From Cucumis sativus (Eukaryota > Streptophyta > Magnoliopsida > Cucurbitales > Cucurbitaceae): 64,000 bases of DNA. Shown here one piece after another: positions 1-64,000 of this stretch. The stretch is taken from positions 18,858,607 through 18,922,606 of the forward strand of contig NC_026656.2 of NCBI RefSeq assembly GCF_000004075.3. Direction: 5' to 3'. The notes beneath the pieces were generated by a model. That model was given only the letters and a program-made list of their open reading frames with translations, did not search any database and was not told where the DNA came from. A program made the position numbers and the translations under genes. Every line of letters begins with the position of its first letter. Position 1 is the stretch's first letter.

Positions 1-155
1 AATTTAGCTTAAAGTTGATAGAGAATTTTGTAGCTTATGTTCTGAATAAGTATATTTCTATTAATCTCTAAACCATGCTGATTACAAGGTTTTGTGATTT
101 TACAGTGGAAGAGAAAAAATAAACAGATGAAGGAGAGATATTATAACGAGCATAC

Positions 156-3100
156 CTCAGACATTATGATCCATGGAATTGCTCCAACACCCAGAGAGAA
201 AGTGACAACCATGGCCTGAAAAAAGATATCTCCTATTGACTCATATGATCAAACTTTTGGAACTAATTTTTAATGATGTGTAAACTTGGACATACCACAA
301 CTCCAACTACCGACACGATCCCCGCTATACTATACAAACTGGAATCCTCAGAGACAGCGTCCTGACATCAATTTTTCAACACAGCAAAGCTTTTAGATGC
401 ATTGCACTAAGACCTTGAGGCTAAGAAAGAATCAAAATAAAGAACTAGTTTACCTTCAGAAAGAATGCCACAGCAACAATCAAAAGGCTAAGAGTCATTC
501 CAACAGAGGAGATCTGAAATAAAATTATAAGATAATTAACAAAGACGTATGGTAATTAAAAGAATCAAGAATGACAACATGGAACTCACAATAAGTAGAA
601 GACGACGTCCGGCTCGGTCGATCACCCACGTTGTAACTGCAGTGGCAACAACCTAAAAAACATACAAGTCGTTGCTGAAAAGCAGAGTTCAGATAGAGCA
701 AATCAATCACTAAGCACATCGATTTTAGATTGTACCTGGATAGCGCCAAGGCCAAATGTAGCTGCATTACTTGAGGTAATACCTGTTTGAAAATTTGATT
801 GCGAAGAGTCATTTGATGCTAAAAATTGGGCGGAGTTTATATTTTTCTCTTCTCTATTTATTTTGACTTTTTGACAAGAATACTATTTTTTCTTTTCGAA
901 ATCATAGATATATAAGAGTGCCTCAAAAGAAAAATAAAAAAACTAAGATGGACAAATAGCAAAAGAAAAAAATGATTTAAACCAAATACTTAATGCAGGG
1001 AAGATATATTTAGTTACCGGCGGATGCAAAGATGGTACTGGAGTAGAATAAAACGCCATTAATTCCACTCAGTTGCTGCAGGATAAGTAATCCTATGCCA
1101 ATCTGAATAATGTGGTAGAGAGAGCTGGAAAAGTAAGTTCCTGAATTCTATGCTTAATATGAATACATATTTAAATTGAATCTTCAAAATCTCCGTACCG
1201 ATAAAGGCAACCAGTATCTTCTCTGCTTCAGATCAGCAAATCTAATAGTTCTTCTTCTGTTGGCTGAAGCTACAGATCTCTGCATCATGTAAGCCGGAAG
1301 AAGTTCTTTGAATCAATGGTGTTACATGGTAACAAATATACATACTTTCCATGGTTCTGCATGAATAAACAGGACTAAACGAATTCATTGGATTATCATG
1401 TGTATTCACCTTGATTTCATTTACTTCAACGGTAATATCTGTGTCAAACCCACGAAGAACTTGCAAAGATGTTTCAAACTCCTCTGTCATTCCCATCTTT
1501 GCCTAAAAGTTGATAGAAGATATATAAAAAAAAACTGTAAGAAATAAAATTTAGATTTATCGAGTTGAAGATATCAATGTCACGACTTTTACCAGCCATC
1601 TTGGAGATTCTGGGATGAAAAACAATCCAGGTATCAATATTGTACAAGGCAAAATTCCTGCAAAAGAAGTTTGTACTTTCTGATGTCAAAGAGGAAAGGG
1701 TGGTTAAATGTTAATGATGCCTGGACAGGATCACACAAATTCATGACATTTTATCACAGCATGGGATTAGAAACTGTTCAACACAACCATCATACACTCT
1801 GTGAAGAACTTTCTAACATCACCTCACACCAAAAATCCGATGCTTATATATATAGGTTCTTCATCAACTCCACGCTTTAAATGAAGGTTCTTTACTGAAG
1901 TAGTAAGTAGGGCTGGAGCCGTATGCAATTAGAAAATAGCCAAGCACCCTCCGCATCCCACAACTTCATTTTAGGTACAATATTACATAACCTCTTTAAC
2001 CCTTGGCTATTATTTATAAGCACAATTTCTAGGGTTCCAATGTCATTTCATTAAGATAATTATAGATAACTTACCTAATACTGCAAGTATTCTCCATGGT
2101 ACGAATAGTCCCAGCAGATAAGACAGCATTATTCCCAAGGTAACAGATAGCTACATCACAAAAGGTGAAAGTAGCTAAGTTGAGAGGTGGTTAGAATTAA
2201 AATGTTTACCAATCCCAAGACCAATTCACAGAACAAACACCAAATATGTCCAACCTGATTGACTGAACCAAGACTTCCTCTCAAGTTTTGGGGTGAAATT
2301 TCAGCAATATAAACGGGGACCTAGAATAGAAGATAGAGTGCCCATCAGTAAAAGTACAAAATCTGAGATTATGTAGCTGAAATTAATGTCGCACCGCACC
2401 GTATAAGAGATTATTCCCACGCCAAAACCTTCCAGTAACCTCCCCATGTAAAGGAAAGACGAATCCTACATAAACAACAAAAATTGGTTATATATAGTAT
2501 ATGTTGCCAGTGGAAGAGTATCCGTTACAAAATGAATCTCTTTTAAACTAACTTTTGCAAATGATATAGCAAGCCAGCCTATGATATTGGGAATTGCAGC
2601 AATCATTAAGGCCTGAAATTAAGCACATAAAAAGTAGGATTAAACCATCCAAATAGAAGAAAACTTTCAGCAAAACAAATTAAAGCAAGAATCAATGAAC
2701 CAACATTACCCCTTTCCGGCCAATATACTCAGCCAACTGACCGCTGGTTATGGCCCCAACCATAGCACCAACATTGCTTAAAGAACCAAATAAAGAATAC
2801 TGTTTCATGAATCAGGTCAGACGTGATTGTAGTTCACAAATGTAGAATGAAAAAGGAAAATACAAGATAACAGAGACATACCTCTGAGACAGTAAGTCCA
2901 AGATCCCGAGTTATTGCCAATTGGGTCGGTGATGAATACCCTCCCTGCAAAGTCAATACTTACTCTGAATGTTTCTTCAACTCAATCAACAATTCGCAAC
3001 GAATTTCAGAGTTACCCCAACAAGCACAAATCTAATTGACATAACCGATCACAACAGAAATGCTCTTCTCTATCTGATCTTTTAGTTCATTCTAGTTTTT

Positions 3101-3423
3101 TCCATTGAAAAACTCAAACCCAGTAACTGAAAAACGAACTAGTAAACTTCCAATAATCCAGTACCCAAAAAATCCCGAGTCAATCTCTCTCAAAGATTTG
3201 GAAAATAAGACTGAAAAAGGTAGTTAGTTACCGTGAAACCAAACTGGATAGGGCCCAAAGCAACGATGAGAACACAAGCAACAACAGAGATGGAGTTATC
3301 ACGAATAGCCTGAGACGAACCCATCAAACTGGATTGTCTGGAACCCATTCGATACCAACTCCCCGTGTGCAGAAATGGCTTCCTGATGTCCCTCCCATCT
3401 TCACTATCATCCCTGAAGCTCAT
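156..3423 (-). CDS. ERDL6: ERD6-like sugar transporter (ERDL6 type), 3' part missing
   Basis: This is a major-facilitator sugar carrier. Arabidopsis ERDL6 exports glucose from the vacuole by proton coupling at the tonoplast, and I infer the same role here. Sixteen exons join in frame to 411 residues: 3232-3423, 2882-2944, 2710-2799, 2553-2612, 2400-2465, 2255-2320, 2075-2150, 1593-1657, 1410-1502, 1199-1279, 1018-1102, 736-782, 590-652, 454-513, 296-361 and 156-215. The start MSFRDDSED matches the family. An ATG four codons upstream (3433-3435) is in frame but less likely. Family marks are GRKG (about 112-115), PESPRWL (about 220-226), [14 protein letters not shown] and DRAGRR (about 339-344). 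The family is about 487 residues long, so roughly 75 residues with the last two membrane spans and the PETKG motif lie left of base 1. Positions 1-155 are intron. Confidence 0.95.
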
Positions 3424-3435
3424 CCTCTTGAACAA

Positions 3436-6900: not shown

Positions 6901-6949
6901 AAAGATCCATTACCCATCAGTAATTGACTAACTCTTTACGTTTTTTCAG

Positions 6950-7008: not shown

Positions 7009-9150
7009 ATGTTATACGAGAATTTTGATCCTTTATTCCCGGAGCAGCCGGTGGTCGACAGGTATCTCCCAGTTTGGGCGAGCCTTCCAGCCTTCCAGTC
7101 GAAGCCAGCGTTCATCTGGTCGGAAGACGGCACTGCCAAGGCCATAAATGAAGACTCATTTCTAACATACCGGCAACTTCACGACTCCGTTCAGTTAATC
7201 ACTGAACAGTTGCTCAGGCAGTTGCGGCGGCGCGATACGGTGGTTGTATTGTGCTCGGCGGGGCTGGACTTTGTCCAGCTAATATATGGTTGTCAAAGAG
7301 CTGGGCTAGTGAGTGTCCCAATCAGCCCCCCGGACGTTTTTTCTGAGAATGAAAATTGTCACCATCTTGCTAGAGCTCTATCCCAGACTAAACCCCGTGC
7401 TGCCATAGCTCACCAGTCTTACATCAACACCGTTTTTCGGTACGTTTTCAACAAACCTTAGTTTTTATTTGTTCATTTATTGAATACTCAAATGCATTGT
7501 CCTAGGCTCATTTATTTGTGTGCATTTGATATCAATGGGCATCTATTCTTACCCTTCACGTAAAAAATATATATATTAACGTAAATGGTGCACTGTGTGT
7601 GTATATATATATAGGTACATCTCATCTTCGGCCGACAAGAAGTTGGCTTTGTTATTGAAGGGCGTGCGATGGATTTCAATGGAGAGTTTAAAACAACCCC
7701 ACAAAGAATCAGAGCTCAATCAACACAAACACCAATCGTCTTTTTATCATTCTTCCTCGTACTCCGGCTGTAATCCAGACGACCCTTATTTAATCCAGTA
7801 CACCTCCGGCGCCACCGCAATTTCCAAGGCGGTGGTGATTACCGCCGGCGCTGCCGCCCACAACGTCCGCGCGGCAAGAAAAGCCTACGACTTAAACCCA
7901 AACGACCTCATCGTTTCATGGCTCCCACAGTACCACGACTGTGGCCTTATGTTCCTTCTCTTAACCGTCATCACAGGGGCCACGTGTGTACTAACTTCAC
8001 CCATCTCATTCGTCACCCAACCAATAACGTGGCTCCACCTCATCACAGCTTTCAAAGCCACGTGCACTCCCGTGCCGTCTTTCACTCTCCCACTCGTACT
8101 CAAGCGGGTGGGTTATTCAAGTGGGCGGGCGGGTAATTTGGATTTGCGGAGCTTGAGGAATTTGATTTTGATTAATGAACCGATTTACCGGTCTACGGTG
8201 GAGGAGTTTGTGGAAGTGTTTAAGACCGTTGGGTTGGACCCGGGTTGTGTTTCTCCGTCGTATGGGTTGGCGGAGAATTGTACTTTTGTTTCGACGGCGT
8301 GGTGTGGCGGTGGTGGGTTCCCGGCGATGCCGAGTTACCGGCAGTTGTTGCCAAGTGGGAGGTTGAGGGATGGGATGTGTAAGGAGATTGAGGTTGTGGT
8401 TGTTAATGAAGAAACTGGGGAGGTGGTTGAGGATGGCGTTGAAGGAGAAATTTGGGTCTCCTCGCCTAGCAATGCCTTGGGTACTTTTCTATGAAACTAT
8501 AAAGATTATAATTAAGCTTATTTTCATACAATATTTTACTTATTCATTTGATTTTAAAAACTTCTCTTTGATCAGGTTATCTTGGCCATCCATCTGTAAC
8601 CGAAGAGACATTCCACAGTAAACTCAAGAACAAATCAAGCCTCAATTTCGTCCGCACAGGCGACAGAGGAGTAATTAAAGGCTCCGACAGGTTCCTCTTC
8701 GTCATCGGCCGGTGTTCAGACGTAATCAAATTAAACAACAACAACCAACAAATCCATCCGCATTACATCGAATCCACATCTTACAACAATTTCTCCGCCT
8801 ATCTTCGAGGCGGCTGCATCGCCGCCGTCAAGGTATCGGGGACAATCGCCCTAGTTGCCGAGATGCAGAGAGACGACAGACACGACGCGGAATTGCTGAG
8901 AAAAATATGCGAAGACATTAGAAAAGCAGTGTTGATTGAAGAGGGAATAGAATTAGGGCTTGTGGTTTTGGTGAAAAGGGGAAATGTGTCCAAAACGACG
9001 TCGGGAAAAGTGAAGAGATGGGTTGTGAAGGAGAAGCTCGCCGGCGGCGGATTGGGGGTTTTGATGGCCTTCGAATTTGGAAAAAACTGTGTGGATTTGA
9101 AGAGAAAAGGAGAGTTTGAAACTCGTCCTGTTCTGATCTCTATGCTTTAA
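7009..9150 (+). CDS. Fatty acyl-AMP ligase-like adenylate-forming enzyme
   Basis: Three exons (7009-7439, 7615-8480, 8576-9150) join in frame to 623 residues, the usual length of a standalone fatty acyl-AMP ligase. Such enzymes adenylate a fatty acid and usually pass it to an acyl carrier protein rather than to CoA. The match is with bacterial FadD-type ligases: an N-terminal GLDFVQLIYGCQRAGL with VPISPP, a P-loop YTSGATAISKAVV from residue 206, SYGLAE (about 359-364), RTGDRG (about 459-464), and the C-terminal catalytic lysine in SGKVKR (about K577). There is no targeting peptide, carrier domain or membrane span, so it is probably soluble and cytosolic. The upstream frame opens with a non-ATG codon, so I chose ATG 7009. 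The oddity is the P-loop, where the usual Ser/Thr-Thr-Gly and Pro-Lys-Gly positions are changed. A plant acyl-CoA synthetase relative is the alternative. Substrate and partner are unknown. Confidence 0.85.
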
Positions 9151-14419: not shown

Positions 14420-15382
14420 ATGGATATGAGAGAACAAGAGAAGGAAGTAATAATGCCTGGAGCTAATTCTGGTGCCGCTGCTTATGGTCATATTTTTGGG
14501 GAAACTTCTTCCGAAAGGATTCATAATGGTTCTCATCACCATATCCAAACAGACCACCACGATGCCGGTGAGAATGTTGGCGGCGGCGGCGGAGGAGGAG
14601 GAGGAGGAGGAGGAGGTGGAGGTGGCGGCGGTGGGGGTGGTGGTAATTTTTCCGCTGGCGGTAGATCCAAGGTGCGAGGGGGTGTTTCTGGAGTTAGATA
14701 TCGTGAATGTTTGAAGAATCACGCGGCGAGCGTTGGGGGGAATATTTACGACGGATGTGGAGAGTTTATGCCGAGTGGTGAAGACGGAACCCTAGAGGCT
14801 TTGAAATGTGCTGCTTGTGAATGTCACCGGAATTTTCACCGGAAAGAAATTGACGGCGAGACTCAATTGAATATCAGTCCTAATTACAGAAGAGGCTTAA
14901 TGTTGAACCATCTCCAGCTTCCTCCGCCATTACCATCTCCTTCAGCTCTTCACGGTCACCATAAATTCTCCATGGCATTAAACCTCCATTCTAGTCCTAC
15001 TGCTCCAATCATCGCTCCGATGAACGTCGCCTTCGCCGGCGGTGGAGGAAACGAGTCTTCCAGTGAGGACTTAAACGTTTTTCACTCCAATGCGGAGGTT
15101 ATGCCGCCGTCTTCTTTCTCCTTGTCGAAAAAGCGTTTCCGTACAAAGTTCACACAGGAGCAAAAGGATCGGATGCTCGAGTTCGCTGAGAAAGTCGGAT
15201 GGAGGATTCAGAAGCAAGATGAAGAAGAAGTGGAAAGATTCTGTACGGAAGTCGGAGTGAAACGGCAAGTCCTCAAAGTCTGGATGCATAACAACAAGAA
15301 CACTGTGAAGAAGCAGAACGAAAATCACGAACCTGAACTCGCCGGTACCGGCGCCGGTGCCGGCATTACGAATGAATCGTAA
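14420..15382 (+). CDS. ZHD5: Zinc-finger homeodomain transcription factor, ZHD5/AtHB33 type
   Basis: This is a nuclear transcription factor of the plant-specific ZF-HD family, whose members dimerise through an N-terminal zinc finger and bind ATTA-type sites. The intronless 320-residue frame starts at ATG 14420 (MDMREQEKE). The longer open frame to the left lacks family similarity and is leader. The zinc finger starts at about residue 92 with RYRECLKNHAASVGG and keeps its Cys/His set through CAACECHRNFHRKE. A proline- and histidine-rich linker and GGGGNESSSEDLN follow, then the homeodomain from about residue 237 (KKRFRTKFTQEQKDRMLEFA to VWMHNNKNTVKKQ). The MDMR start, the AASVGG finger and ESSSEDLN point to Arabidopsis ZHD5 rather than ZHD1 or ZHD2. 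A run of about 22 glycines precedes the finger. A donor-like GGTAAG lies about 37 bases after the stop, so a 3'UTR intron is possible. Confidence 0.95.
   Translation: MDMREQEKEVIMPGANSGAAAYGHIFGETSSERIHNGSHHHIQTDHHDAGENVGGGGGGGGGGGGGGGGGGGGGGNFSAGGRSKVRGGVSGVRYRECLKNHAASVGGNIYDGCGEFMPSGEDGTLEALKCAACECHRNFHRKEIDGETQLNISPNYRRGLMLNHLQLPPPLPSPSALHGHHKFSMALNLHSSPTAPIIAPMNVAFAGGGGNESSSEDLNVFHSNAEVMPPSSFSLSKKRFRTKFTQEQKDRMLEFAEKVGWRIQKQDEEEVERFCTEVGVKRQVLKVWMHNNKNTVKKQNENHEPELAGTGAGAGITNES
14579..14644 (+). repeat. Polyglycine GGN codon repeat in ZHD5
   Basis: About 22 consecutive glycine codons: four GGC, then eight GGA, then a mixed set. The pure GGA run is a trinucleotide microsatellite inside coding DNA, so length variation between plants is likely. 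Confidence 0.85.
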
Positions 15383-21246: not shown

Positions 21247-21249
21247 ATT

Positions 21250-30021: not shown

Positions 30022-30038
30022 GCTGGAATAGCTCAGTT

Positions 30039-30071
<33 letters not shown>

Positions 30072-41988: not shown

Positions 41989-42695
41989 CTAAGCACCGAC
42001 TCCATTGCTGTGATTCAACTTACACGACGCCACGTCGGCGACGCCGTACAACGACACGCAAGCTTTTGAAGCGCCGTCGAGGACTGGCGGTTCATTCAGA
42101 AACGCCGAATTACTCCTCGTCCACCTGCACAATACACAGAGAATTAAACAACAGTATACATGATCTCTGATAAATAACTATTTTATTTTATTTCGTTCAT
42201 ATATATAAATTTCAAGCACTAAGATCCGCGACCGAATAACTAATTAATGCGCGATTTTAAGTTCACCAGCCAATTTTCTTCAATTCCTCTAGGTTTTTTC
42301 TGTCCATTTTGTTCTCAACAAATTTTGCTTCCACCGCAACGTCGTCCTTCGCCGGCGGAAACGAACTCGACCTTTTGTAGTCTAATCCGACTGTTTCACA
42401 ATCATAACGATCGTCCACCGGCAAAGAAACCGCTCTGAGATGTTCTTTCTCCAATTTCCTCTTCGATTTCCAGTATGCTTCGATTTCTTCTTTCGTAAGT
42501 GACCGATTTCTCTTGAACTTGACTGAAATTTCGAAGTTATTACACACGATTATTCAACTAACCTCCGGAACAAAAACAGTACACACATAATGTGATAAAT
42601 AATTCACAAAATCAATGAAAAAACAATTCATCTGGATTATTACCTGATTTGGGATCGAGAACGGGAGAATTCCATCCGCCCATTAGAGAGCCCAT
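41989..42695 (-). CDS. Conserved plant protein of unknown function (MGSLM...GWW...FLNEPPV type)
   Basis: Three exons (42644-42695, 42267-42522, 41989-42124) join in frame to 147 residues. The exon-2 frame on its own runs to a stop just past the splice site, hiding exon 3. Using donor GCTG-GTGAAC and acceptor TTGTGCAG gives a natural GWW junction. The N terminus MGSLMGGWNSPVLDPKS is followed by a basic, helical stretch KFKRNRSLTKEEIEAYWKSK. The C-terminal motif is WWTRSNSAFLNEPPVLDG. I recall this pattern from small plant-specific proteins (related to At1g13390/At1g68490, whose SecA-like label is not informative). There is no signal peptide or membrane span. The function is unknown. Confidence 0.85.
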
Positions 42696-45705: not shown

Positions 45706-47665
45706 TTAGGGATGTGAAGAGAAGGCTCTCTTGAAACGATTCGGCACCGGCCTGAGCCAATCAGCAGCACCAATGAAGGATTTAGTGAAAAATGGTGCAG
45801 CATCTTGGGCAGTCATGTTAGTAAATGACCACGATACCCTTCTCGAAGTATTTGCTCCTTTTCCATAACATTTGTATTGCCCATAGTAAACCGTACTGCC
45901 AAAATATAATTCAATTAGCTTAAGTTGTGATTTAGAAAAGTATAAAATAGTTTTACTTAATTAATAAAATAAGTAAAACCTTTGTTTGGATGGGTCTTGC
46001 CAATTATCCCAACCCTCCGGGAGAATAACGTCCGACATGAAAGTGAATCCAAACACGACTCTAGAGAATGCTCCCCACGGCCTTCCTAAAACCGCCGAGT
46101 TTATTCCCGTGATCTTACACCCCATGAATACGAACCCTGTATTCTCCGATGGTGATTCTCTCCGTTGGGCTGTGATTGTCCCGACGTCCTCCGAAACTGA
46201 CCGTAGGTGGCAATTCTACAAAAGCCCAATAGGCCCATTTTAACATATGTACATAAAATTATGTATTGATTTGACTTAAACGTAAATTCGAACTAACCTC
46301 GAACAATGAAGCTGCGTTTCCACATATGAAATCGGTGGCTCCTTGGATGTAACAACTTTTGTAGTAATGACGACCAATGTCATCTAGGAGAGTGTCTTGA
46401 TGGCCTAAAAATCTACATGCTGTAAATGATACTCTATCTCCAGATACTCGTAAGGCCACTGCTTGTGCACCCGGCCCGTATCCATTCTTCAACCCACCAA
46501 TCAATTAAATTAAATAATAAGTTAATCAAACTTTTCTCTTAATTATACCCAATAAATAAAATCTTAAAATCTTATGTTTATGTTTATTTCTTTTGTTTTT
46601 ATTAATAGTTATGTATATATGTTAATCAGAACATTACTTTGGTTGTTAGAAACTAAAAAAAAAAAGTGTTGTATAAGTTTAGAAAAATGTTAGAATTGTT
46701 GTAATTTATATATATATAGAGGAAAGCAAATTCATAATTTATTGAGTTTATAGTAAATTACTGGATGCTGGTGATGTCAAACCATAAAAGTTTTTAATTA
46801 CATTTTTATTTTTATTTTTATTCTTAAATTTCAAAATATGATATTTTTTTATTGTTGGATTTTGAAAAGTTGATTTTGTTTCTAAGTTTAAAAAGTTAAA
46901 TATTTTATTTTCATTTTTTTTTATCCATACTTATCTTGAGTGTATGACCTTATATTTCAACAAAGTAATTAAAATTATTTACGAGGGTGAAAAGTTAAAT
47001 TTAATGGTAATGAAAGACTTAGAAATAATAATAATAATTTTAGTTATAATTCATTTAAATTAAAAACTATCTCCCCCTTGTTTTTCTTAAATAAAAAAAT
47101 GTAAACGTAAATTTCAAAAACAACCAAAACCAACACAAAAGCTCAAAACTCTCACCCGCAAAAATGGTAAGATTTTCAAAATTTAGAAACACAATAATGT
47201 CGTTGTTCTTATTATTTATTGTTTTCATGTATTAAGATAACCGAAATAGATTCGAAGATGAATATTATATGTTTTTCTCTTGTAGAAATTAGAAACCTGA
47301 ATTGTGAGATATCGTCCAACGAAATCAGAGGCCAAAACTGCAAGAGTTGCAGAATTATAAGTATTCTTGCTATCATTCCAACTGATGATCGTATCCACCG
47401 CTCTTCTTCCACTTATAGTAATGAACGGTTTATTCGCCGGAACCACCACCTTCTCTCTATAAATCCCCGCCTTCACCGAAATAAACACTTCCTCCTTGTT
47501 ATTTATCGGCACTGCATCAATCGCCTGTTGAATCTTCGTAAAGTTCCCCTTCCCAGATTGATCCACGGTTATCAAAACCGCCGTAGTTACCGCCGCTGCC
47601 GTAACCTCTGCCACTAAGACCGCCGCAATAACACTAATAGCAAGTAAAAAACTCGGACGAGACAT
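45706..47665 (-). CDS. Pectinesterase (pectin methylesterase), type II
   Basis: The enzyme removes methyl esters from wall homogalacturonan. Four exons (47297-47665, 46298-46486, 45980-46215, 45706-45895) join in frame to 327 residues. An N-terminal signal peptide ([20 protein letters not shown]) sends it to the cell wall. There is no PMEI pro-domain, which makes it a type-II enzyme. The catalytic set is complete: QAVALR (Q131), HQDTL (Q153, D154), TDFICG (D175) and LGRPWG (R231, W233). The exon-2 acceptor (GGTTGAAG) has a weak pyrimidine tract but the reading frame fits the family. Resemblance is to the Arabidopsis PE8/PE11 group. PE11 (At2g21610) is recalled next to RER1B (At2g21600), matching RER1 to the left here. 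Confidence 0.95.
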
Positions 47666-50319: not shown

Positions 50320-52689
50320 TTAATACAGAGTTTCAACCTCTTTTCCTTTGCTACTACCACTGTAGCGGCAGCCATGGGGTTGGAGCTTTCCTGGATTCTC
50401 GTCCTCAGAATCACTTGACTCCATTAAAAGCCCTTCCAGGCATCTTCGTCTTATTCTGGGGTCATACGTAACCTTCTCGGCAGGTGTCGCTATGTATTTT
50501 GATTTTCTAGTATGATGATCAGACTCTAATTCATCTTGACAATTTGTTGGTTCTCCTGGGAATTTCAACTTGATTCCTGGATTATTTTCGGTAAATGAGG
50601 TGTTGAACGTGATTGAGTTGTTGATACCTTGTACATTGAGGTTGATGTATAATTCCAGGGGTGGTGGATCTGGATTCTCTTCTGTTGTTGAATCTTTCGC
50701 TGTTTCGTTGTTTGAATTTTCTTTGATGTCTGTGGAACTTTCAGGGCTTTGATCTGGATTACTTTTGTAATGATGGTTGACGTGGATTGAGCTTTCGCTT
50801 TTGGCTTCGTCGGAGAGTAAGTGCATTGATGTTCCTTTGTTATCGCCGATCATTGTTGTGAGACTCTTTGGATTTTCTTCATCTGAATATTTGATGTTTA
50901 GTTTGTTAAAAGCTTTGGATAGGTCTTCCATGGATTCGTCTTGTTGTGTGTTATTTTCTGGTTCAAATGATGAACGACTTTTGGAAGATGTGATTAATGT
51001 GCTTCTAGATGCTTTGGTTTGAAATGCATTGGTTGTCTTTGCCCCATCTTCCTTAGTTTCTTTTGACTCTGTTTGTGATTCTAGAGAGGAATCTAAGCCC
51101 TTTTCTATGGCTTGATCAGATTGTGTGGGGTTTTCAGAAGAGTCCTTGTACGAATGAGGATTGGAAGTGTTCTTAGAAGCAAGCTCTTCCTTATTTTCGT
51201 TCTTGGATGTCAGCTCTTCCTTGGTTTCATGCTGAGTTTTTGATTCTTCCAATTCCACTGGTTTCACGTTTGGTTTCGGGGACTTCTTTGATTCGGCTTG
51301 TATCTGACTTTCTCCACTTGTAGGTATAGCTTTTGGGGATGGATTTGCGGGATCGGAAAGGATTCTATCTGTTGTTTGGTCTCCAATGGATGCAGTAGGT
51401 TCAATAGGCTGTTGTGAGGTTGATTGTGCAGTAGGTTTTCTAGACAAATGAGATGGAGACTGAACCCGGAAGGTTTTTTCTGATGGTGGTTGTAGAGAAT
51501 TTTCTTGAGATGGCGACCGTGGCGGCATAGAAGAATCTTGAGATGGAAATTTTAACTTAGAAGATGATGAAGGCTGAGAATCAGCTTTAAATCTTGATTG
51601 CGATAATGATGGTTTTAAATTTGGATGGTGTTGAATTCCAATGGTTGCAGGAGATTCAGTAGGCTGTTGTGTTGTTGATTGTGCAGTAGATTTTCTGGAC
51701 GAATGAGATGGAGATTGAACCCGAGAGGTTTTAACCGATGGTTGTTGTCGGGAAATTTCATGAGATGGCGACCGTGGTGGCGTAGAAAAATCTTGAGATG
51801 GAAATGTTGATCTTGAAGACGGTGAAGGGTGAGAATCAGCTTTAAATCTTGATTGTGATGGCTGTTTTGAATTTGGATGGCTTTGAATTCGAATGGTTGC
51901 AGGAGACTCAACAGGTTGTTTTGATGTTGATTGTGTAGTGGGTTTTCTGGACAAATTAGATGGAGACTGAACCCGAGAGGTTTTTTCCGATGATTGTTGT
52001 CGAGAATCTTCTTGAGATAGCGACTGTGCCGGCAGAGACGGATCTCGAGATGGAAGTGCTGACCTTGAAGACGATGAAGGCTGAGAATCAGCTTTAACTT
52101 TTAATTGTGAAGTTGGTTTTGAATTTGGATGCTTTTTATTGGATGTTTGAGATGATGAAGACGACGCCTTTGAAGCAATCCGAGGAGGTGTAGCTGCAAC
52201 TGTTGCAGGCGATGAAGGCTTTGAAGAAGCATCCTTTGAAGGGGAGAAAACTTTGCCTGCTGGTGATGACGGCTTTGAACTATCCTGAGACTGGGATCCC
52301 TTGCCTGATGTTGAAGGCTTGTCGGAAGCAACTGAAAATTGAGGAATTGCTTTCGATGATGATGAAGGCTTGGAAGCTGCTCGAGACCGGTTTTTGGCTC
52401 GAGTTGTTGATGGCTGAGAATGAACTTTGCCTGCCTTGTGAGATTTTGAAGGCGGCATAGTTTCACTTCTTTCAGCTGCCTGAGCTGTTGCTAGAGGAGG
52501 TTCTTCTGGTTTTGTCTCAGGAGACTGATCTGGTTGGTGTCGAATATTCGGCACAGTATCGGCTGCAGAAGCAGAACCTTCGGATTCATCTGTAGGCCCA
52601 AAACTCCGTTCTGGCGACTCATTTGCAGAACGAGAAGAAGCTTTTAACGATTGCCAAGGAAGTAGAATGCGCAATTGTGAAAGTGACAT
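50320..52689 (-). CDS. Ser/Pro-rich low-complexity protein with internal triple repeat, function unknown
   Basis: One uninterrupted frame gives 789 residues from the first ATG at 52689 (MSLSQLRILLPWQSLKASS). The open frame extends 17 codons further upstream without an ATG, so an unseen upstream exon is possible. The body is Ser, Pro, Lys, Thr and Gln rich and probably disordered. Three near-identical in-frame units of 84-85 residues (about 51365-52110) carry FKADSQPSSSS, SRVQSPS and SRKPTAQST. The C terminus is different and looks conserved: LELYINLNVQGINNSITFN, then YIATPAEKVTYDPRIRRRCL and EGLLMESSDSEDENPG. There is no signal peptide or membrane span. The basic and acidic patches suggest a nuclear protein. 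A relation to Arabidopsis nucleolar-like proteins At4g39190/At2g21560 is only a guess from memory and position. Confidence 0.8.
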   Translation of the reverse strand: MSLSQLRILLPWQSLKASSRSANESPERSFGPTDESEGSASAADTVPNIRHQPDQSPETKPEEPPLATAQAAERSETMPPSKSHKAGKVHSQPSTTRAKNRSRAASKPSSSSKAIPQFSVASDKPSTSGKGSQSQDSSKPSSPAGKVFSPSKDASSKPSSPATVAATPPRIASKASSSSSQTSNKKHPNSKPTSQLKVKADSQPSSSSRSALPSRDPSLPAQSLSQEDSRQQSSEKTSRVQSPSNLSRKPTTQSTSKQPVESPATIRIQSHPNSKQPSQSRFKADSHPSPSSRSTFPSQDFSTPPRSPSHEISRQQPSVKTSRVQSPSHSSRKSTAQSTTQQPTESPATIGIQHHPNLKPSLSQSRFKADSQPSSSSKLKFPSQDSSMPPRSPSQENSLQPPSEKTFRVQSPSHLSRKPTAQSTSQQPIEPTASIGDQTTDRILSDPANPSPKAIPTSGESQIQAESKKSPKPNVKPVELEESKTQHETKEELTSKNENKEELASKNTSNPHSYKDSSENPTQSDQAIEKGLDSSLESQTESKETKEDGAKTTNAFQTKASRSTLITSSKSRSSFEPENNTQQDESMEDLSKAFNKLNIKYSDEENPKSLTTMIGDNKGTSMHLLSDEAKSESSIHVNHHYKSNPDQSPESSTDIKENSNNETAKDSTTEENPDPPPLELYINLNVQGINNSITFNTSFTENNPGIKLKFPGEPTNCQDELESDHHTRKSKYIATPAEKVTYDPRIRRRCLEGLLMESSDSEDENPGKLQPHGCRYSGSSKGKEVETLY
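51365..52110 (-). repeat. In-frame triple repeat (84-85 codons each)
   Basis: On the plus strand GAGAATCAGC recurs at 52083, 51831 and 51576, spacings of 252 and 255 bases, both multiples of three. Flanking sequence stays highly similar through each unit, indicating tandem duplication within the coding region. Confidence 0.9.
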
Positions 52690-54145
52690 AACAGACAATA
52701 AAGGAATGCTGGGGTTTATCAATGAAGTTATCCTATCCAAAGCAATATATAATTTGGCATTGGATACTTTGGAAACATGCCAACTTTTGCACTAGCTTTT
52801 CCTTCAGAACTTCCTTCTTTAGCTTTCTTTTACCTTTCTGTTCAAAAAGGAATATAGGATGGATGGTTTTGCCTTCTCAAATAAGATATTTCCTTCTTAA
52901 ATGAGCGAAAACATCATATTCAATCCTAAAGTTTACAGTTGCATTTACCTTTGATTTTCAATTGCGTAGGGATGACAACGAGACGAGGAAAATTTGTCCG
53001 CATTTTCTAACCAGACTGAAGACTTTCGTTTTGGTTCGTGCTGGATCTCGACAAGGCATTGCTCCAAAAACCTTACCATCCGTAAGTCTACTTTCTTTCT
53101 TTACCCCCCTACCAAGTAAAGAAGAAGGAATCCCCTTTTCCTTGGAGGCATTACACTTTTTGTGGTAAAATCAAAATGAATTGGCTTAAGACTTAAGATG
53201 TACATAGAGAAGCAAAGGCTTTTGTGCCTAAAAGAAAAGGGGGATTTGGTTTGGATAGAGAAGATCGGAAGAAAGTTTTGGAAATGCAAAAGAAAACATG
53301 ACTCTTTAAGTTTAGATGGCACAAGAATATATTCCACATTTGAGAAAATATAATTCTAAACATTTGGTATCTTTTAAGATTTTTTTAGTAATAATATTGT
53401 TTTTAAAAATGAAAATACTAATAATTTTTTTATTTTAAAACATAATTTTAAATTACAAGTAACATATACTATTGCTTCTATTTTTTTACTGTTTATAATT
53501 CATTCACTTTTTTTATATACATATTTATCTCTCATGTTTCTTTGTTAGAAAATTAAAATCAGAATCAATACATTTTTAGGCTTTTATGCTTTTATGTATT
53601 AAGCATTCATACCTCTTACCCATTCCAAATAGCGTTTTTTGATGAAAACATTATGAAGAAAGCAAAAAAAAAAAAAAAAAAAGGGTGCAATAACTCCACC
53701 CAAAATCAACCCAAGGATCAATATCGGTGGACGCTATATCCCAAGCCACATGTAATATTTTTTTCCTGTTCTTCATTTTGATAATTGAAGCAAAGAATAT
53801 GTTTACTAATCGCAATGTTAATTGAAAAGTAGTTTCTTGATGAAATCAATTAGGATCAATAATGATTGCAAAGACATTCTTGTAAAGCAAAGAATAGTGT
53901 GCACTAATCAAATTAGTTTCATAATGAGATGAACGATAATTACAAGTTATTCTTGTTTATCCTATTTCAAAATGTTCGTGCGTTCATCTTCAAACAGAGC
54001 TTCCTATCACAGTCCAATCCAGATCCTAGGTCAATTATCGTACTAATCTTCACAAAGTTTTTCAATTGTAATAGAAACGACCAAATGAAAATTTATTCAA
54101 ATTAACTAATGATTTCCTTTCAAACTTTTGATGAACAGATCTAAA
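52690..54145. other. Spacer between divergent genes, with possible CBSX3 leader exon
   Basis: It probably holds the promoters of the Ser/Pro-rich gene (left) and the CBSX3-like gene (right). A candidate non-coding leader exon ends at CATCC-GTAAGT (53081). If used with the AACAG acceptor at 54138, it would make a 5'UTR intron of about 1.06 kb. A long A run lies near 53665-53682. Confidence 0.4.
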
Positions 54146-55611
54146 ATGCAGGGGGTCATGAGAGCAGTACGATCATGGCAAGAGACGTTAAAGAAGATCA
54201 CGGTCATGCAACATTCGTATAGAAGAGAGATGAGTAAAGTGAAAAATATCTTGGAAGGATTGGAACTAGAAGGTGGTTCATCTTCCTCACTGAAAAGTTT
54301 GGAGAATATTACTGTCAGAGAGATCGTTTCGAAAAAGGGAGAAGGAGGTATTGGCTCCTCCTGGATATCCTGTAGGGCAGAGGATACTGCAATTGACGCT
54401 GTGCAAAATGTAGGGAGTTTTGTTTGGTTTTTGCCATTTTCAAAAGCAGGAATGTTTTTTCCTTGGAAGAATGAGGACTTCTTCTTTGTTGCAGATGGCT
54501 AGACATAACATTGGATCTTTGGTGGTGATGAAGTCTGAAGGAGAAAACATAGCTGGGATTGTTACAGAACGAGGTAAACCTAAAGGCTACCCTGATGGAT
54601 AATAATTGTTTTTTTCCTCTCAAACTTATTTCAATGTATTATTACTTTCTTAAATTTGAAAAAAAAATTGTTTGGTCCTAGGATTTCAAAATGTTAGGTG
54701 TTTGGAGTAAGGTGTAAAATAGTAAGGAGTAAGGTTATAAATTCCTAGACCTCACTGTTGATTTGATAAGATATAATTAAATTGATAGTTCTTATAAATT
54801 AATAAACAAACATTAACACTAAAAACTTAAGGCAAGTATTAAGTGAGAAATCAATGTAAGTTTAAATAATCCAACCTAAGGATCAAATAGAAACAAAACT
54901 CAAATTTAAGGGTAAAATTGTAACATTAAACCTACAGATAAATTGAAAATGAACTCAAACCTTAAAATTAAAGTGGGGTAAGTACGTAGCATTTTGAAAC
55001 CTAAAGATCCAAGGGTAGTTTTTCGGGGAAGGAAAAGGAAGAAAGTAGGTTCTCCTTTGAGCTCTATTCCATGAATATCATCAACTTGGTGACTGCTGAT
55101 TTCTGATGATCCTAAGCAGACTACCTGAAGAAAATAATAGCAGATGGGAGATCTCCCATATACACAAAAGTTGGAGAAATAATGACTCATGAGGTTATTT
55201 TCTGTCTTCCCTTGGCTACAAAACCAGTTTACAAACAACAGTTCTCAAGCATACATTTTTATTTTTCCATCAACAGGACAAACTAGTAACCATAACGTCG
55301 GACACGAACATCCTTAAAGCAATGCAGCTTATGACAGGTAAATACTAAATGTAGTTTAATTTAGATTCTGAAATTACCATTACAAAAAGGGAAGTCAGCT
55401 CCTTCTTCAGCTGCATCAACGATCATCCAAGAGGAGAATAATCCAGTTGAAGTTTTTGGCATTTGCAGAGAATCACATAAGACATATTCCTGTGATAGAT
55501 GGAAAACTAGTTGGCATGATTTCTATTGTAGATGTTGCCAGAGCAGTTGTAAAGCAGCAAAATGGGGAACTTGAGCAACTAAACAACTATATAAAAGGAG
55601 AATATTATTAA
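54146..55611 (+). CDS. CBSX3: CBS-domain protein, CBSX3-like (mitochondrial)
   Basis: Arabidopsis CBSX3 is a mitochondrial protein with a CBS pair that binds adenosine ligands and regulates thioredoxin o. Five exons (54146-54409, 54495-54573, 55120-55193, 55277-55337, 55469-55611) join in frame to 206 residues, the family size. The start MQGVMRAVRSWQETLKK matches the family's MQGV and suits a targeting peptide. An ATG five codons upstream is in frame but precedes a likely splice acceptor (AACAG, 54138). CBS 1 includes MARHNIGSLVVM and IAGIVTERDYLKKIIADGRS. CBS 2 includes KVGEIMTHEDKLVTITSDTN and NHIRHIPVIDGKLVGMISIV. The C-terminal end is NNYIKGEYY. Every junction keeps frame. Confidence 0.95.
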
Positions 55612-56205: not shown

Positions 56206-58982
56206 TCAAGGTAGTCTTTTGCCACGAAGAGCTTGAGAAGTCCTCAGAGCCATTTGAAGAGGTTGGGAAGCAATAAAACCCTGGGCCTCCATAACACCCT
56301 CCATCCTTTTAGCATCCTGCAAAAAGCCACCTGCTACAAGTCCATTTATGATCCTTTCAAAATCATCATGTCCCAACTCCTGCTTTTTAGCTTCCAAGAT
56401 CTTCAGAGCTTGCAGCGCCTTTTTCTCAATCCCAGCTCTTGAGTACATATCACATAGGCTAATACGAACCTTAATGGGGAGATAGTGACCCTGTGCGCCA
56501 ATCTTGGCTAATACCTGCTCGGCTTCTTCAACCAGCTGCAACTTACCCAACCAATCTACAAGAACAGCATAAGTTGCAAGCCCAGGCTCAAAGCCATCCT
56601 TTTCAAGTTGTAGTAAAAGATCCAAAGCCTTGTCCAACAGATTCTTCTTTTCATAGGCTGCAATCATACTTGCAGTGCACCTGTCATCAGGTGCGTGCCC
56701 AAGTTTTATCATGTAGTCAAAATTGTTCCTTGCCTTATCAGGATCGCCAGCTTGCCCATATGCCTCGACGAGCAATGTACATGATTCCAAATTTGGAGAG
56801 ATGCCAGCAAACTGCATAGTAGCAGCAATTCTTCCAGCGCCACTAACATAACCACATTGGGAAAATGATCTAAGTAATGCCATGTAAATGTCCTGGCTGG
56901 GTTTGATGTCCCTTGCTTCCATATCTCTCATCAGTGACTCCCCCAACTTGGGTTGTCCAGCATTTACATATGCCATTATCATGGAATTATATACCTTCTC
57001 ATCTGGTTGGAAGCCGTGACTCCTCAAGGAATCAAAAGCTTTCTTCGCACTATCAAGATTGCCTGCCTTGCTATACATATGAATCAAATATATGGTTGTC
57101 AATATGTCCGGTGCAATGCCCTTCTCATTCATCTTGACAAGAATCCTCTCAGCATCCTCTAGGCGATTCTCTTTAGCATAGACCTCAATAAGCTTAGAGT
57201 AGTCACGGATGTTGGTCTGGAAAGACTCTTCACTCAAAAGAAGTTCTGCTACCTTCATTCATAATAAGCAACAAGTTTGAATTAGGGTCTTATTGCTAAC
57301 ATTAAATCGTTCTTTATAATATGCAGTAGAAAAGTTTCATTGATACACACACCCATTGCATAACACCATCAAAAGAGCAGAGGCCAACTTCACGCCAAAT
57401 ATATGACAATCCAAACAAAAGCAACCAAGATCTCATAAAGCAAGCACCAATTCTAACTATTAATACAATGGATAAATGAAATTTCCTCTCCTCTGTTCAG
57501 GACACATAAACATTAAGCAATAACAATTAAGAAAAACAACATAAGGTAAGTGGAAAAAGAAAAAAAACGACAACAATCTTCTCCTTCGTTTATACCAATC
57601 CTCCGTGGAAAACAGCAGCTTCTACTCCAATAATTGATTGTTAAGCACATATACTAGATCGTTACACAAGTAAAAATTATTTGTTTCTGAAATTAAAAAT
57701 GTTGATCTGCAAGATATATCTTGATAGGATTCTACATGGTTTGCATTGACAACACAAGTCTATTTAATGTGTGCAACAAGTATATATATAGGGTAACTGA
57801 GTGAATTTTGAAACAAACAATCAAAATTGTACTATAACGCAAGGCAAGAGTGGGAAATAAAAGATGCTGTTTTACCTTGAAGTATAAGAATCTATTCTTC
57901 TCATTCAACCTATCAAGTAAGGTAATCCAGTCAATCCTAGTGGGTTGAAGAAGCTCTTTCCATTCAGCCAATAATGGAGATGGGTCGTCGTTCTCATTTA
58001 ACAAAAGAATTTTCTCTGTGACCAGTTTGCACATCCCAGAAATTGGCTTTGGTTCCTGCGGCAATATCAGCTTCTCTGCCACATGTAATTTGTCTGCTAA
58101 TTCACTCCACTTAGGATCAGATAAATCAAGACCATAAATCTTGTACTTTAACTTCCCTCGCCTTTTGGGAAGAGAAACAGCCTCGGATTTCACCTCAGAT
58201 GCAGCCTCTGCACCACTTGCAGAATCCTTGTTTTCTTCCTGGGTACGTGCCTCTTTTCTGAGCTGCTCCAGACTCTCGTAAAACTCACTTTCCTCCATTT
58301 TCTCACGGGCCCATTTGAACCTAAATTCCCTCAGCATATCCCCTCGAATACCAACTTCCCCAGCAAACCTACACATTTCCTGAACTTCCCTGGACAGGAG
58401 AAAACCCTTCATTTTCTCCTTCTTTGTAGCCTTCTTCATATCATCCAAAACCATGTTGCTAACTTCAGTTACCGTCTTCCACAAATCCTCACTTAGGTCC
58501 CAATCTGGATTATCAGTTGAAGCCTTTAGCGTCTGCTCAAACCTACCCTTTTCCATTTCAGATACTACTTTTTCCACTATCATCAAAAGCATTGCATTAA
58601 CTGTTTGCTTATCGTAATCCGGAAATTCTTCAGAAATCTTCTCGCGCATTATCCAAACAAATCTGGATAAGAACTCGTTCATTGATCCATCATCATCCTC
58701 AACTTCTGCAGATTCAGGTTTTGGCTCAATTGCTGCATTACTCAACTTGGTTACAGTGAAGTGAATGCACCTACTGAAAAGTGAATTCAATTTGCTGAGC
58801 TCAAAATTTCTAGCAGCAAGTGATGAATAATAACCACGGTGTGAATCAAGCAAAGAAAACGAGGGTTTTGTGATGAATATGTGAGTGGCATTTATGTTAG
58901 GTGATTGCCGATCCAGTAAGTTGCCATTGATTTTTGAAAAATTCTTCCGTGTTTGACGCAGGAGTAAATGCTTTAAGCTCAT
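56206..58982 (-). CDS. NFD5: PPR protein, NFD5-like (organellar RNA binding)
   Basis: PPR proteins bind organelle RNA through 35-residue helical repeats. Arabidopsis NFD5 (At1g19520) is needed for nuclear fusion in the female gametophyte and is probably mitochondrial. Two coding exons (57876-58982 and 56206-57252) join in frame to 717 residues. I chose ATG 58982 (MSLKHLLLRQTRKNFSKING), which has a basic, acid-poor mitochondrial-type start. The open frame runs on upstream into what looks like a 5'UTR intron (59011-59539, CAG-GTCCCA to CAACCAG). The N-terminal half (to about residue 370) is helical and not PPR, with LPKRRGKLKYKIYGLDLSDP. The second exon carries about eight P-class repeats, such as DYSKLIEVYAKENRLEDAER and TTIYLIHMYSKAGNLDSAKK. 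Confidence 0.93.
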
Positions 58983-58999
58983 CTTTGGTCCCTTGCCTT

Positions 59000-60849: not shown

Positions 60850-61769
60850 ATGGGAACTCTGGGCAAAGCTATTTACACCGTTGGATTTTGGATCCGTGAG
60901 ACTGGTCAGGCAATCGATCGCCTTGGCTGCCGCCTCCAAGGAAGATATTTCTTCCAAGAACAGCGTAAGCATTGGTTTATTCTTCTTTTTTCTTTTCTGG
61001 GTATACCGCGTTTTCTCTAGTATTGGATCTTTCCACCCTTAATTTTGACTGGATCAGCTTGTGGTAATGCTAATTCATGCTGTCTGAATTTGATTGATAA
61101 AATACAGCTTATGAGTCGTTCAGGGTGCGTGTGTTTTTAATTTTAACTGAATTGAATAGATATTCGGTACGTCAAGGAGAATATTGATTCTCAGTTTGTG
61201 AAATGGCTGAGGTTTCGAGTGTTAGGTTTAGGGATACGTTCATGAATTCTTTTGGGATTTGTATTAGAATTGTTGATTTTTGGTATTTGAAGCAACGTAG
61301 GATGAATGCTTCTATGCTTTTCGATGGGGGGTGTCTAATGCGGTCAAACGGTACTTACTGGGTTATTGTGGAATTTTTAATTAAAAATGCTGATGTACTT
61401 TGAGAGTGAAGGTTGTAGTGAAATTACTCACTTGGGGATTTCAAAGTGTGATTGTTGATGGCATCGTCAGTGTAACACATTTCTTGTTATACATATTTTG
61501 CTTAATTTTCTGTTGTGTCTGGGTTGTTGTTGTGATATATCGATTTGGCTATGACTTATGACTTCCCCTTTCTTGTTCCATCGTCTTGATACCTGATGGT
61601 TTAATATGTCCGAGGTTTCTTGCAGTGTCTAGGCATCGCACTCTGATGAATGTATTTGATAAGGCTCCTGTTGTTGACAAGGATGCATTTGTAGCTCCAA
61701 GTGCATCCATTATTGGGGACGTTCAAGTTGGACGAGGATCTTCCATTTGGTATGGGTGCGTTTTGAGAG
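60850..61769 (+). CDS. GAMMACA1: Gamma carbonic anhydrase 1, mitochondrial complex I subunit (5' exons only)
   Basis: Plant gamma carbonic anhydrases form a trimeric domain on the matrix side of mitochondrial complex I. Exon 1 (60850-60964) encodes MGTLGKAIYTVGFWIRETGQ, then IDRLGCRLQGRYFFQEQ. Exon 2 (61626-61769) adds LSRHRTLMNVFDKAPVVDKD and IGDVQVGRGSSIWYGCVLRG. Together they give 86 residues, matching the start of Arabidopsis At1g19580 (about 275 residues). Exon 2 opens the left-handed beta-helix of hexapeptide repeats. The zinc-binding histidines lie in later exons that are not in the window. The second intron starts at 61770 and exceeds 2.2 kb because of inserted repeats. Neighbour NFD5 is likewise close to it in Arabidopsis. 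Confidence 0.95.
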
Positions 61770-62489
61770 GTAAAATCTACGTGAAGAATCTTGCATTTCT
61801 ACAGTAATTTCTATTTCTTTCGTCAGCACATTTAACCAGTTTGATACGTGCTATGAAAGTTTTGGACTCTAAAATGTTTGTCCATCTTAAACCTCTTCAC
61901 ACTATTTCTTTAACGGGAAGGTTTTTAAAATTAATGTAATGATAGTTTGTGTTTTTGATGTGATTGGTATTTTTATGCTTTTTTATGAGATTTTTTTAAA
62001 TTATATTTGTTCTACTTATTAATTAATTGGGATGTTATCCATAGTTTCTATCTATATCCTTTGACATTTCAACTATCATTAGCTCACTTCCATTCCGCAA
62101 TCTATGCGTTTTCCGTATTGTAGCTTTGTCTTTTCCTGTCAATAAATATCTACGGACTATAGGCACAAGTCTTAACGTATTCTTATTTTCTGATGCCTAC
62201 CGGCTAGCTCTTGCATTCCCTTTTCACCTTAACCTTTACACTTGATGTTTGGTCACCTTAACCTTTTATTTTTATTTTTTTTACTATATATATCTTATTT
62301 GGTAGGATAATTTTTAAGAAGTAGTTTTTTGTTTTAAAACCAAAAAACGAAAATAGTATTTTGTAATGTTTGTATGAAAAATAAATAATAAAAGAACAAG
62401 AAAGATATTTTACCAGATTTTTTTTTTTAGAAATCGAAAAGGATGAAAAATAATTTGAAAAGGTCAACATACAAAATCATTATAACCAC

Positions 62490-62630
62490 CTTGAGTTGAC
62501 CTAGTGGTCATTGAGGCTAGTGAAAATTTGAAGGGACTTAGAAATCATACAAGTTTATTGCTCAGACCATTAGCATAGTAGAGGTGAGTGCAAGCTGACT
62601 CCAAATGCTTATGGATTTTAGGAAAAGAGT
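62490..62630 (+). mobile_element. SINE copy with short middle (Au-like 3' domain)
   Basis: It begins TTGAGTTGACCTAGTGGTCA (A box) and ends TAGAGGTGAGTGCAAGCTGA-CTCCAAATGCTTATGG, the same 3' domain as at 29414-29582. Most of the middle, including the B box, is missing. Confidence 0.55.
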
Positions 62631-63136
62631 CTTATTCATTTGAAAAGAAATTGAAAGAAATTCACTCAAACATCTTCGTAAGCTCGTTTGCCAACAAACT
62701 TTCCTAATAATTCAACTTTTAAATAAAATTTCTAAATCCTTGCTAAAATTTCAAACTTAGAAAAGCTATATTCTATTAGGGAGGACAGACTGCAGAAGAG
62801 AGTATAACTCTATCTGAATGGTAAACATACTTCTAATTATCCATTTTTCCCAATTACATTTCTTTCAAAAGGCCTTTTTTATTCCACTATTCACCTTATT
62901 GCATAAGGTTGTAAACATGGTGGATGACTGATTAGAGATTTCATCTTGGGCTGAAACAAATGAGGAAGTCTGTTGGAACATTGGGGTTTGGGGCCACATA
63001 ATATTGAAGGCACTCTACTCTTCTCTTATGATGGCTAAATGGTCCTAAGAGATAGTGAATTTTTTATTCTCTCAAGTAGGGAATCTGGATTTGGATTTAG
63101 TGAATCTCAATATTGAACCTTTTCGTTGCTATCATA

Positions 63137-63337
63137 GGTTGGCCTAGTGGTAAAAAGTGAGACATGGTCTTACTCACTAGGAGGTCATGGGTTCAATCTA
63201 TGGTGGTCACCTACCTAAGAATTAATTTCCTACTAGTTTTCTTGACATTCAAATGTTGTAGGGTTAGACGGGTTGTCCTGTGAGATTAGTCAAAGTGCAC
63301 TTAAACTGGTCCGGATACTCATTGATACAAAAAAAAT
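63137..63337 (+). mobile_element. tRNA-derived SINE, nearly full length
   Basis: A box TGGCCTAGTGG lies at 63140-63150 and B box GGTCATGGGTTCAATC at 63183-63198. The body includes GTAGGGTTAGACGGGTTGTC and GTGAGATTAGTCAAAGTGCA, the 3' end is CTGGTCCGGATACTCA, and a run of nine A closes it. It has the plan of an Au-type plant SINE and is the best-kept copy in the window. Confidence 0.75.
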
Positions 63338-63640
63338 GTATCAAACCTTATTGTGAAATCCTTATATAAAAACTGAAGTTGTGACTGAGGCGCCATCGTT
63401 GTTGCATACAACAGGGTGACTTGATGATTTTTTTGGAATGTATCTCAGTACTAAATTGGATACTGTAGATAGGTTCGGGGAGGCACCAGAATCAAGCTCT
63501 CTCCTTCTTGGTGTGTCCTATCACTTGTGCTATGCTACAAACATATAGAAGACTCTCACCATGCATTTTCCTACATTTGGAGGTCTTGGGTTCAGGAATA
63601 TTTTCCCTTTTCCATGAGGGAAGGAGAGATGCTCTGACAA

Positions 63641-63739
63641 CTAGTTTTTTTGGAGATCTAGGAGTTAGTGAGATTTAATTGTGGCGCTGACTAGTTTTTC
63701 GGATCTCTAGGAGTTAGTGAGATTTAATTATGGCGCTGA
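63641..63739 (+). repeat. 50-bp tandem duplication
   Basis: Two adjacent units (63641-63690 and 63691-63739) each run from CTAGTTTTTT/CTAGTTTTTC through TAGGAGTTAGTGAGATTTAA to TGGCGCTGA, with only a few differences. Confidence 0.9.
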
Positions 63740-64000
63740 ATCAAAGTATTGTGCTCATTTTCTCCTCTTTTAAGAATTAGAAAAGCTCCCCATAAAAATT
63801 TGGAGAAGTTTTGTCATCTCCCTCAGTTTTTGTAGGTTGGGAAGATATCTTATTTTCCCTTTTAGTTCTATTTTTATTATTTATTTATGTATTGTTTTCT
63901 TCAATTAAAAGTTTGTTTCAATAGAAAAAATTGTCAACTGTTTTTTATTATTTCGAAGAATAAACTTTGCACGATAGTTTCAGCCATGTTTTAAGAACAG

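Follow-up and report, generated by a model that had tools for sequence, protein, structure and literature searches.

Is a 64,000-nucleotide stretch of the cucumber (Cucumis sativus) genome, positions 18858607-18922606 of contig C2 (hereafter the window), the one fairly complete copy of an old gene block that Arabidopsis has split over four segments, or does its own genome carry several such copies? A preliminary description, made from the sequence alone and naming 15 Arabidopsis loci, had proposed the former on the strength of eight named families. All eight are indeed found together in the window (8/8, by Pfam and, for gamma carbonic anhydrase [gamma-CA], by PDB sequences): an ERD6-like sugar transporter (ERDL), a ZF-HD homeobox gene (ZHD), a RADIALIS-like MYB gene (RAD), RER1, an NmrA-type reductase, a pectinesterase (PME), a PPR protein, and gamma-CA. 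Our analysis nevertheless indicates that the window is probably one of several own-genome copies, and that the Arabidopsis At2g21 and At4g39 segments are probably counterparts of a different copy, of the kind present at C2:12.3 Mb. The paralogous places, their order, and their divergence were observed directly.

The genome (226.6 Mb, 88 contigs) was searched with the RAD, ZHD, RER1, NmrA, PME, gamma-CA, and ERDL proteins, with a CBS-domain protein, a FAAL-type ligase, and a small protein designated U42 from the window, and with a proteasome alpha gene beside it that we take to be of PAF type; the PPR protein and a Ser/Pro-rich protein were left out. Two places refute the retention of only one fairly complete copy. 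At C2:12.29-12.39 Mb, four window families lie inside 94 kb: RER1 at 12383-12387 kb, the only other place found for it in the genome, with an NmrA cluster (12360-12370 kb) and a PME (12355-12357 kb) beside it and RAD represented at 12293 kb. The PME there is the closest relative of the window PME by summed score, and RER1-NmrA-PME keeps its order and orientation between the two places as an inverted run. At C3:36.91-37.02 Mb, where three families are represented, RAD (36908 kb), ERDL (36921-36925 kb), RAD (36939 kb), and U42 (37016 kb) follow the same order as at C2:18834-18901 kb; no other genomic place was found for U42, and the ERDL paralogue is intact across 461 aligned codons. When 16 window and flank proteins were compared with 60 kb of this C3 region, matches were obtained for ERDL and RAD only, U42 lying outside those 60 kb. 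RAD genes stand on both sides of ERDL at C2:18834-18882 kb and at C3:36908-36939 kb. This arrangement points to a RAD pair older than the divergence of the window and C3 segments, a matter that the RAD distances leave unsettled.

Two further places, C7:0.08-0.28 Mb and C4:3.69-3.73 Mb, stand as copies on weaker grounds than C2:12.3 and C3. In the former (C7:80-279 kb), four RAD genes accompany a cluster of NmrA genes (225-279 kb), the NmrA gene closest by score sitting outside it at C7:4.75 Mb; the latter (C4:3693-3726 kb) holds a gamma-CA paralogue and a ZF-HD gene. The NmrA gene is single in the window and clustered at the C2:12.3 and C7 places. PAF has one close copy in the genome, beside the window (98%), the next places being 40% identical or short.

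Could such gatherings arise by chance? Several of the families concerned (sugar transporter, PME, ZF-HD, and MYB) have many members in this genome, and such members might come to lie together with no common history. When one closest paralogue was taken for each of nine families, however, 4 pairs fell within 150 kb, vs 0.053 expected, a result that none of 50000 random placements reached; when RAD was excluded there were 2 pairs vs 0.040 expected (17 of 50000), and at 250 kb the corresponding figures were 2 and 70 of 50000. When the 122 paralogue places were all placed uniformly, a four-family cluster arose in 5 of 5000 trials at 150 kb and two clusters of at least three families in 54; at 250 kb, a four-family cluster arose in 36 of 5000 and three clusters of at least three families in 27. 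RER1 and U42, moreover, each have a single other place, and both of these are inside the paralogous segments. Two results tell the other way. Clusters of at least two families are at chance level (6 vs 7.0 expected; 8 vs 10.8 at 250 kb), so that the case for C7 and C4 is one of divergence and content rather than of counts. Nor did an excess appear when family labels were shuffled over the observed places: the counts out of 5000 were 2061 and 4213 at 150 kb and 2605 and 3412 at 250 kb. The label-shuffle null was set aside because shuffling retains the positions that carry the clustering. Chance gathering is already disfavoured, and we consider it scarcely credible.

Divergence was estimated by the Nei-Gojobori method with Jukes-Cantor correction, as the proportion of synonymous differences (pS) and the number of synonymous substitutions per site (Ks). 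Between the window and C3, ERDL has 81% amino acid identity (Ks 1.09, pS 0.58), U42 has 50% (Ks 1.58, pS 0.66), and RAD, compared with C3:36.938, has 57% (Ks 1.51, pS 0.65); gamma-CA is 91% identical between the window and C4:3.69 Mb (Ks 1.54, pS 0.65). Between the window and C2:12.3, synonymous differences are at or near saturation: RER1 has 79% identity and pS 0.79, NmrA 66% and 0.82, PME 56% and 0.74, and RAD 58% and 0.84. For NmrA, Ks is 1.34 between C2:12.37 and C7:0.25 vs 2.48 between the window and C7:0.25, and pooled transversion divergence at fourfold-degenerate sites (4DTv) between C2:12.37 and C7 is 0.28. With an order common to both and a divergence below that of the older pairs, the window and C3 look like a pair of cucurbit age. 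As these are simple estimates, the two levels of divergence are suggestive and not proved.

Which Arabidopsis segments, then, answer to the window? Locus numbers rise along the chromosome, and gene order was derived from those in print. In the available portions of the papers cited, ERDL4 is At1g19450 and ERDL6 At1g75220 (PMC8450595); the RAD-like genes are At1g19510 (RL5), At1g75250 (RL6), At2g21650, and At4g39250 (PMC5618610); RER1 is found at At2g21600 and At4g39220, text and table swapping the A and B names (PMC3482696); At4g39230 is an isoflavone reductase (PMC3430217); and At2g21610 is listed among pectin methylesterase pairs (PMC7063471). Gamma-CA 1 is At1g19580 and gamma-CA 2 At1g47260 (PMC7447434), while ZF-HD HB33 is At1g75240 (named ZF-HD in PMC3485569 as well) and HB27 At5g42780 (PMC9369202). 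TYW1 is At1g75200 (PMC2956550), cytosolic phosphoglucose isomerase (PGI) At5g42740 (PMC12751066), and PAF1 and PAF2 are At5g42790 and At1g47250 (PMC11546751). At1g19520, given as NFD5 in the preliminary description, is a PPR protein called mS77/rPPR2, the name NFD5 not being met in the available part of that paper (PMC6953067). Thus 13 of the 15 loci named in that description have been published under a family or name that fits, At1g75280 and At1g19540 not among them; a literature search for papers naming any two of six loci including At1g75280 gave none. With its flanks, the window runs PGI, TYW1, RAD, ERDL, ZHD, RAD, RER1, NmrA, PME, PPR, gamma-CA, PAF. Using printed loci only, At1g75 (TYW1, ERDL6, HB33, RL6) and At1g19 (ERDL4, RL5, PPR, gamma-CA1) are each 4/4 collinear with this order, so that the idea of an old gene block is borne out along At1g75200-75250 and At1g19450-19580. 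We further take KCS4 to be At1g19440, the nucleotidase At1g75210, the pfkB kinase At1g19600, U42 At1g19530, the CBS protein At1g47271, and the NmrA loci At1g19540 and At1g75280. At5g42 (PGI, HB27, PAF1) is 3/3 in window-region order, provided that the window ZF-HD gene answers to HB27, and at At1g47 PAF2 and gamma-CA2 are adjacent by locus number. As PAF has no second close copy in cucumber, the single gene next to the window has to be the counterpart of both PAF1 and PAF2.

The preliminary description had instead named At1g19, At1g75, At2g21, and At4g39 as the four counterparts, all of them derived from one post-gamma region by the alpha and beta duplications. The presence in the window of every family on its list, the 13 loci in print within those segments, and the RER1-PME and RER1-NmrA adjacencies taken alone fit this proposal. 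Order does not: At2g21 runs RER1, PME, RAD and At4g39 runs RER1, NmrA, RAD, and neither fits the window, where both nearby RAD genes (at 23 kb and -24 kb) are on the side of RER1 opposite NmrA and PME. From its RER1 end, C2:12.3 runs RER1, NmrA, PME, RAD, with RAD beyond PME and NmrA as in At2g21 and At4g39. The two Arabidopsis RAD pairs also fall in different clades, RAD2 (At2g21650/At4g39250) and RAD3 (At1g19510/At1g75250), traced to the core-eudicot ancestor, with RAD1 and RAD3 incompletely resolved from each other, in the available part of the study (PMC5618610). Because the order matches C2:12.3 and not the window, and because the RAD clades differ, At2g21.6 and At4g39.2 were probably misassigned, whereas At1g19.4-19.6 and At1g75.2-75.3 hold by content and order. 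Adding At5g42.7 and At1g47.25 to the four would, moreover, give six segments, above what alpha plus beta allow for a single region. We regard that set of four counterparts as unlikely. The 1:4 relation to Arabidopsis may nonetheless be right, but with a different four segments. The RER1 peptides were also set side by side: the window copy has MKRQIM and SIGKQ and the C2:12.38 copy MRRQIS and SFGKQ. Arabidopsis RER1A/B presumably read MRRQIA and SFGKQ, and the comparison is a lead and not a test.

A number of observations weigh against the reading of the window as one of several copies with C2:12.3 an older relative, and some of them favor another history, in which C2:12.3 Mb arose from the window by cucurbit-age or segmental duplication and the Arabidopsis segments represent one post-gamma region plus rearrangement. 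Pooled 4DTv relative to the window hardly differs among places (C3, 0.29; C4, 0.34; C2:12.3, 0.36; C7, 0.35), overlapping between both kinds of pair, and RAD at C3:36.908 and C2:12.29 gives a Ks of merely 1.18 (90 codons), crossing the grouping; a RER1-NmrA-PME run that is collinear with orientation retained would likewise suit a duplicate. That history is at odds with pS, which reaches 0.74-0.84 between the window and C2:12.3 vs 0.58-0.66 for window-C3 and 0.65 for window-C4, and we think it improbable. Other RAD distances also cross the grouping, all of them over 68-90 codons: the window gene is at Ks 1.69 from C7:0.120 and saturated against C3:36.908 (pS 0.88), while for the supposed outer partners, C2:18.834 is at pS 0.70 and Ks 2.09 from C3:36.908. 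In a RAD tree of eight own-genome copies and Antirrhinum RAD, 0/6 inner branches reach the support mark; the copies share 35-45 of 61-62 residues with Antirrhinum RAD, a measure that does not sort them into clades. When gamma-CA was placed in a tree that included Arabidopsis and mung bean sequences, 0/3 inner branches were supported, and the closeness of the window and C4 genes (91%) is clear; of the named Arabidopsis genes, gamma-CA alone was covered by sequence comparison. Of the four genes common to the window region and C3, two agree in orientation. The C4 ZF-HD gene, considered as a young partner of the window's, was rejected, its divergence being no lower than for other ZF-HD genes. The window ZF-HD gene may answer to HB33, HB27, or both, and the order At1g19520-19540, in which 19530 and 19540 are presumed positions, is locally reversed in the window.

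The history we propose is built from known events. Wax gourd shows the eudicot-common (gamma) hexaploidy and the cucurbit-common tetraploidization, and cucumber is said to be similar, in the available part of the report (PMC6856369). With both polyploidies in cucumber, up to six copies of the old run are expected, a set to which the window, C3 (joined by C4 for gamma-CA), C2:12.3, and C7:0.1-0.28 would naturally belong. An ancestral eudicot gene run would have been brought to three copies by gamma, doubled by the cucurbit-common tetraploidy, and thinned by gene loss. C3:36.91-37.02 Mb, together with C4:3.69 Mb for gamma-CA, would be the younger, cucurbit-age partner of the window, and C2:12.29-12.39 and C7:0.08-0.28 Mb its older, gamma-age relatives. 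The Arabidopsis counterparts of the window would then be At1g19.4-19.6 and At1g75.2-75.3, and probably At5g42.74-42.79 and At1g47.25-47.27, with At2g21.6 and At4g39.2 the probable counterparts of C2:12.3/C7:0.1-0.28. Arabidopsis may have lost RER1 and pectinesterase from its window-type copies, a hidden paralogy that would explain why At2g21 and At4g39 seem to match the window. The RAD2/RAD3 split, in the part of that work available, fits At2g21/At4g39 as gamma-age relatives of At1g19/At1g75 (PMC5618610). Compared with the two polyploidies in cucumber and its relatives, the likeness lies in own-genome paralogous segments at apparently two levels of divergence, and no difference was seen; the assignment of segments to events, like the event ages, the alpha/beta labels, and the hidden paralogy, is what we infer. 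Compared with the presumed alpha/beta segments of Arabidopsis, the members of the run that are kept vary from segment to segment, as expected from gene loss after duplication, but two of the four first named fit another segment of the cucumber genome better. That the RAD-ERDL-RAD-U42 and RER1-NmrA-PME runs were held together by selection through shared regulation, beyond chance survival, appears very improbable.

All of these findings are what known polyploidies and gene loss ordinarily produce, and they have little importance beyond the locus. They do illustrate how, when genes are lost differentially, an older paralogue can be mistaken for a counterpart, RER1 and pectinesterase pointing to At2g21/At4g39 only if the C2:12.3 Mb copy is ignored. 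Before gene function at this locus is transferred between Arabidopsis and cucurbits, the copies at C2:12.3, C3:36.9, and C7:0.1-0.28 Mb should be checked.

Protein genes of the window and its flanks (window coordinates; negative positions are upstream)
Feature	Position	Strand	Pfam	Remarks
PGI	approx -58 to -51 kb			upstream flank
TYW1-type flavodoxin/radical SAM protein	approx -40 to -34 kb			upstream flank
KCS	approx -33 to -31 kb			upstream flank
Second RAD gene	approx -24 kb			upstream flank
HAD 5'-nucleotidase	approx -20 to -10 kb			upstream flank
Small predicted protein	approx -5 to -3 kb		no match	upstream flank
ERD6-like (ERDL6-type) sugar transporter	1..3423	-	PF00083, 241 bits	3' end beyond window, upstream side
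FAAL-type AMP ligase	7009..9150	+	PF00501	623 aa, 3 exons; outside the block first described
ZF-HD homeobox gene (ZHD)	14420..15382	+	PF04770, 106 bits	320 aa, with glycine run
RADIALIS-like MYB (RAD)	22552..23822	-	PF00249	exon 1 23545-23822, exon 2 22552-22579
RER1 family gene	31539..32981	+	PF03248, 253 bits	2 exons
NmrA-type reductase (PCBER/isoflavone-reductase-like)	37592..40198	-	PF05368, 316 bits	5 exons
U42, small protein	41989..42695	-	no family	147 aa; gene model
Pectinesterase (PME)	45706..47665	-	PF01095, 251 bits	4 exons; PE11-like in the naming of the preliminary description
Ser/Pro-rich protein	50320..53079	-	no match	847 aa; outside the block first described
CBS-domain (CBSX-like) protein	54146..55608	+	PF00571	last exons hand-set, model approximate
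PPR protein, NFD5/mS77 kind	56206..58982	-	PF13041 and others	2 exons
Gamma-CA	60850..64000, continuing past window	+		exons 60850-60964, 61626-61769; rest 64392-65877
pfkB kinase	approx 68-71 kb			downstream flank, beyond gamma-CA
Proteasome alpha gene	approx 72-77 kb			downstream flank
Protein kinase of MAP-kinase look and bZIP gene	farther out			downstream flank

Gene models were obtained by home-made splice-aware prediction and spliced protein alignment. Twelve supported protein genes lie in or overlap the window, a gap scan leaving some weak candidates besides, and four of the 12 (the FAAL-type ligase, U42, the Ser/Pro-rich protein, and the CBS protein) are missing from the list first drawn up. 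Nine of 10 window proteins submitted together to Pfam matched a family, U42 being the exception; among eight further proteins six matched, the exceptions being the small upstream protein and the Ser/Pro-rich protein of the window. The spliced alignment of ERDL covers 461 codons and 19 introns. Two of the five gamma-CA exons are within the window, the other three following within 1.9 kb past its end, and the protein matches the Arabidopsis PDB chains of gamma-CA1 (7a23_q, 528 bits) and gamma-CA2 (7aqq_y, 506 bits). PDB matches were also found for the ZF-HD protein (homeodomain chains 1wh7/1wh5), for the NmrA protein (isoflavone-reductase-like and PCBER enzymes; 9qrg, 1qyc), and for RAD (best match RADIALIS 2CJJ, 103 bits), and RER1 had no match in PDB. 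The second exon of RAD, its edge placed by eye, ends LMKNLKLQ. The top PDB matches of the FAAL-type ligase are adenylate-forming ligases of the bacterial FAAL type, and its nearest relative in the genome is a 1000-residue open frame at C4:13.82 Mb with 35% identity, remaining matches being far weaker; FAAL-like domains occur in plants, with function unknown, in the available part of PMC8460268. The CBS protein has one weak match elsewhere, at C6:9.40 Mb.

The flanks were examined over 70 kb on each side, and some flank gene models are still fused or overextended. In PDB, the proteasome gene ranks first with a plant-length alpha subunit, then with human alpha type-1 and yeast alpha-6/PRE5. The glycine run of the ZF-HD gene is encoded by a short tandem repeat (14578-14643), and the Ser/Pro-rich gene contains three 252-base tandem repeats at 51382-52131 (84 codons each, 83% match). 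A short open frame of coding-like composition is present between RER1 and NmrA at 35542-35771 (+). Two tRNA genes (tRNA-Ala and tRNA-Asn) lie in the window at 21173-21247 and 30022-30096, and each flank carries a tRNA-Glu(ttc) gene (L026:9320-9392 and L033:2819-2891).

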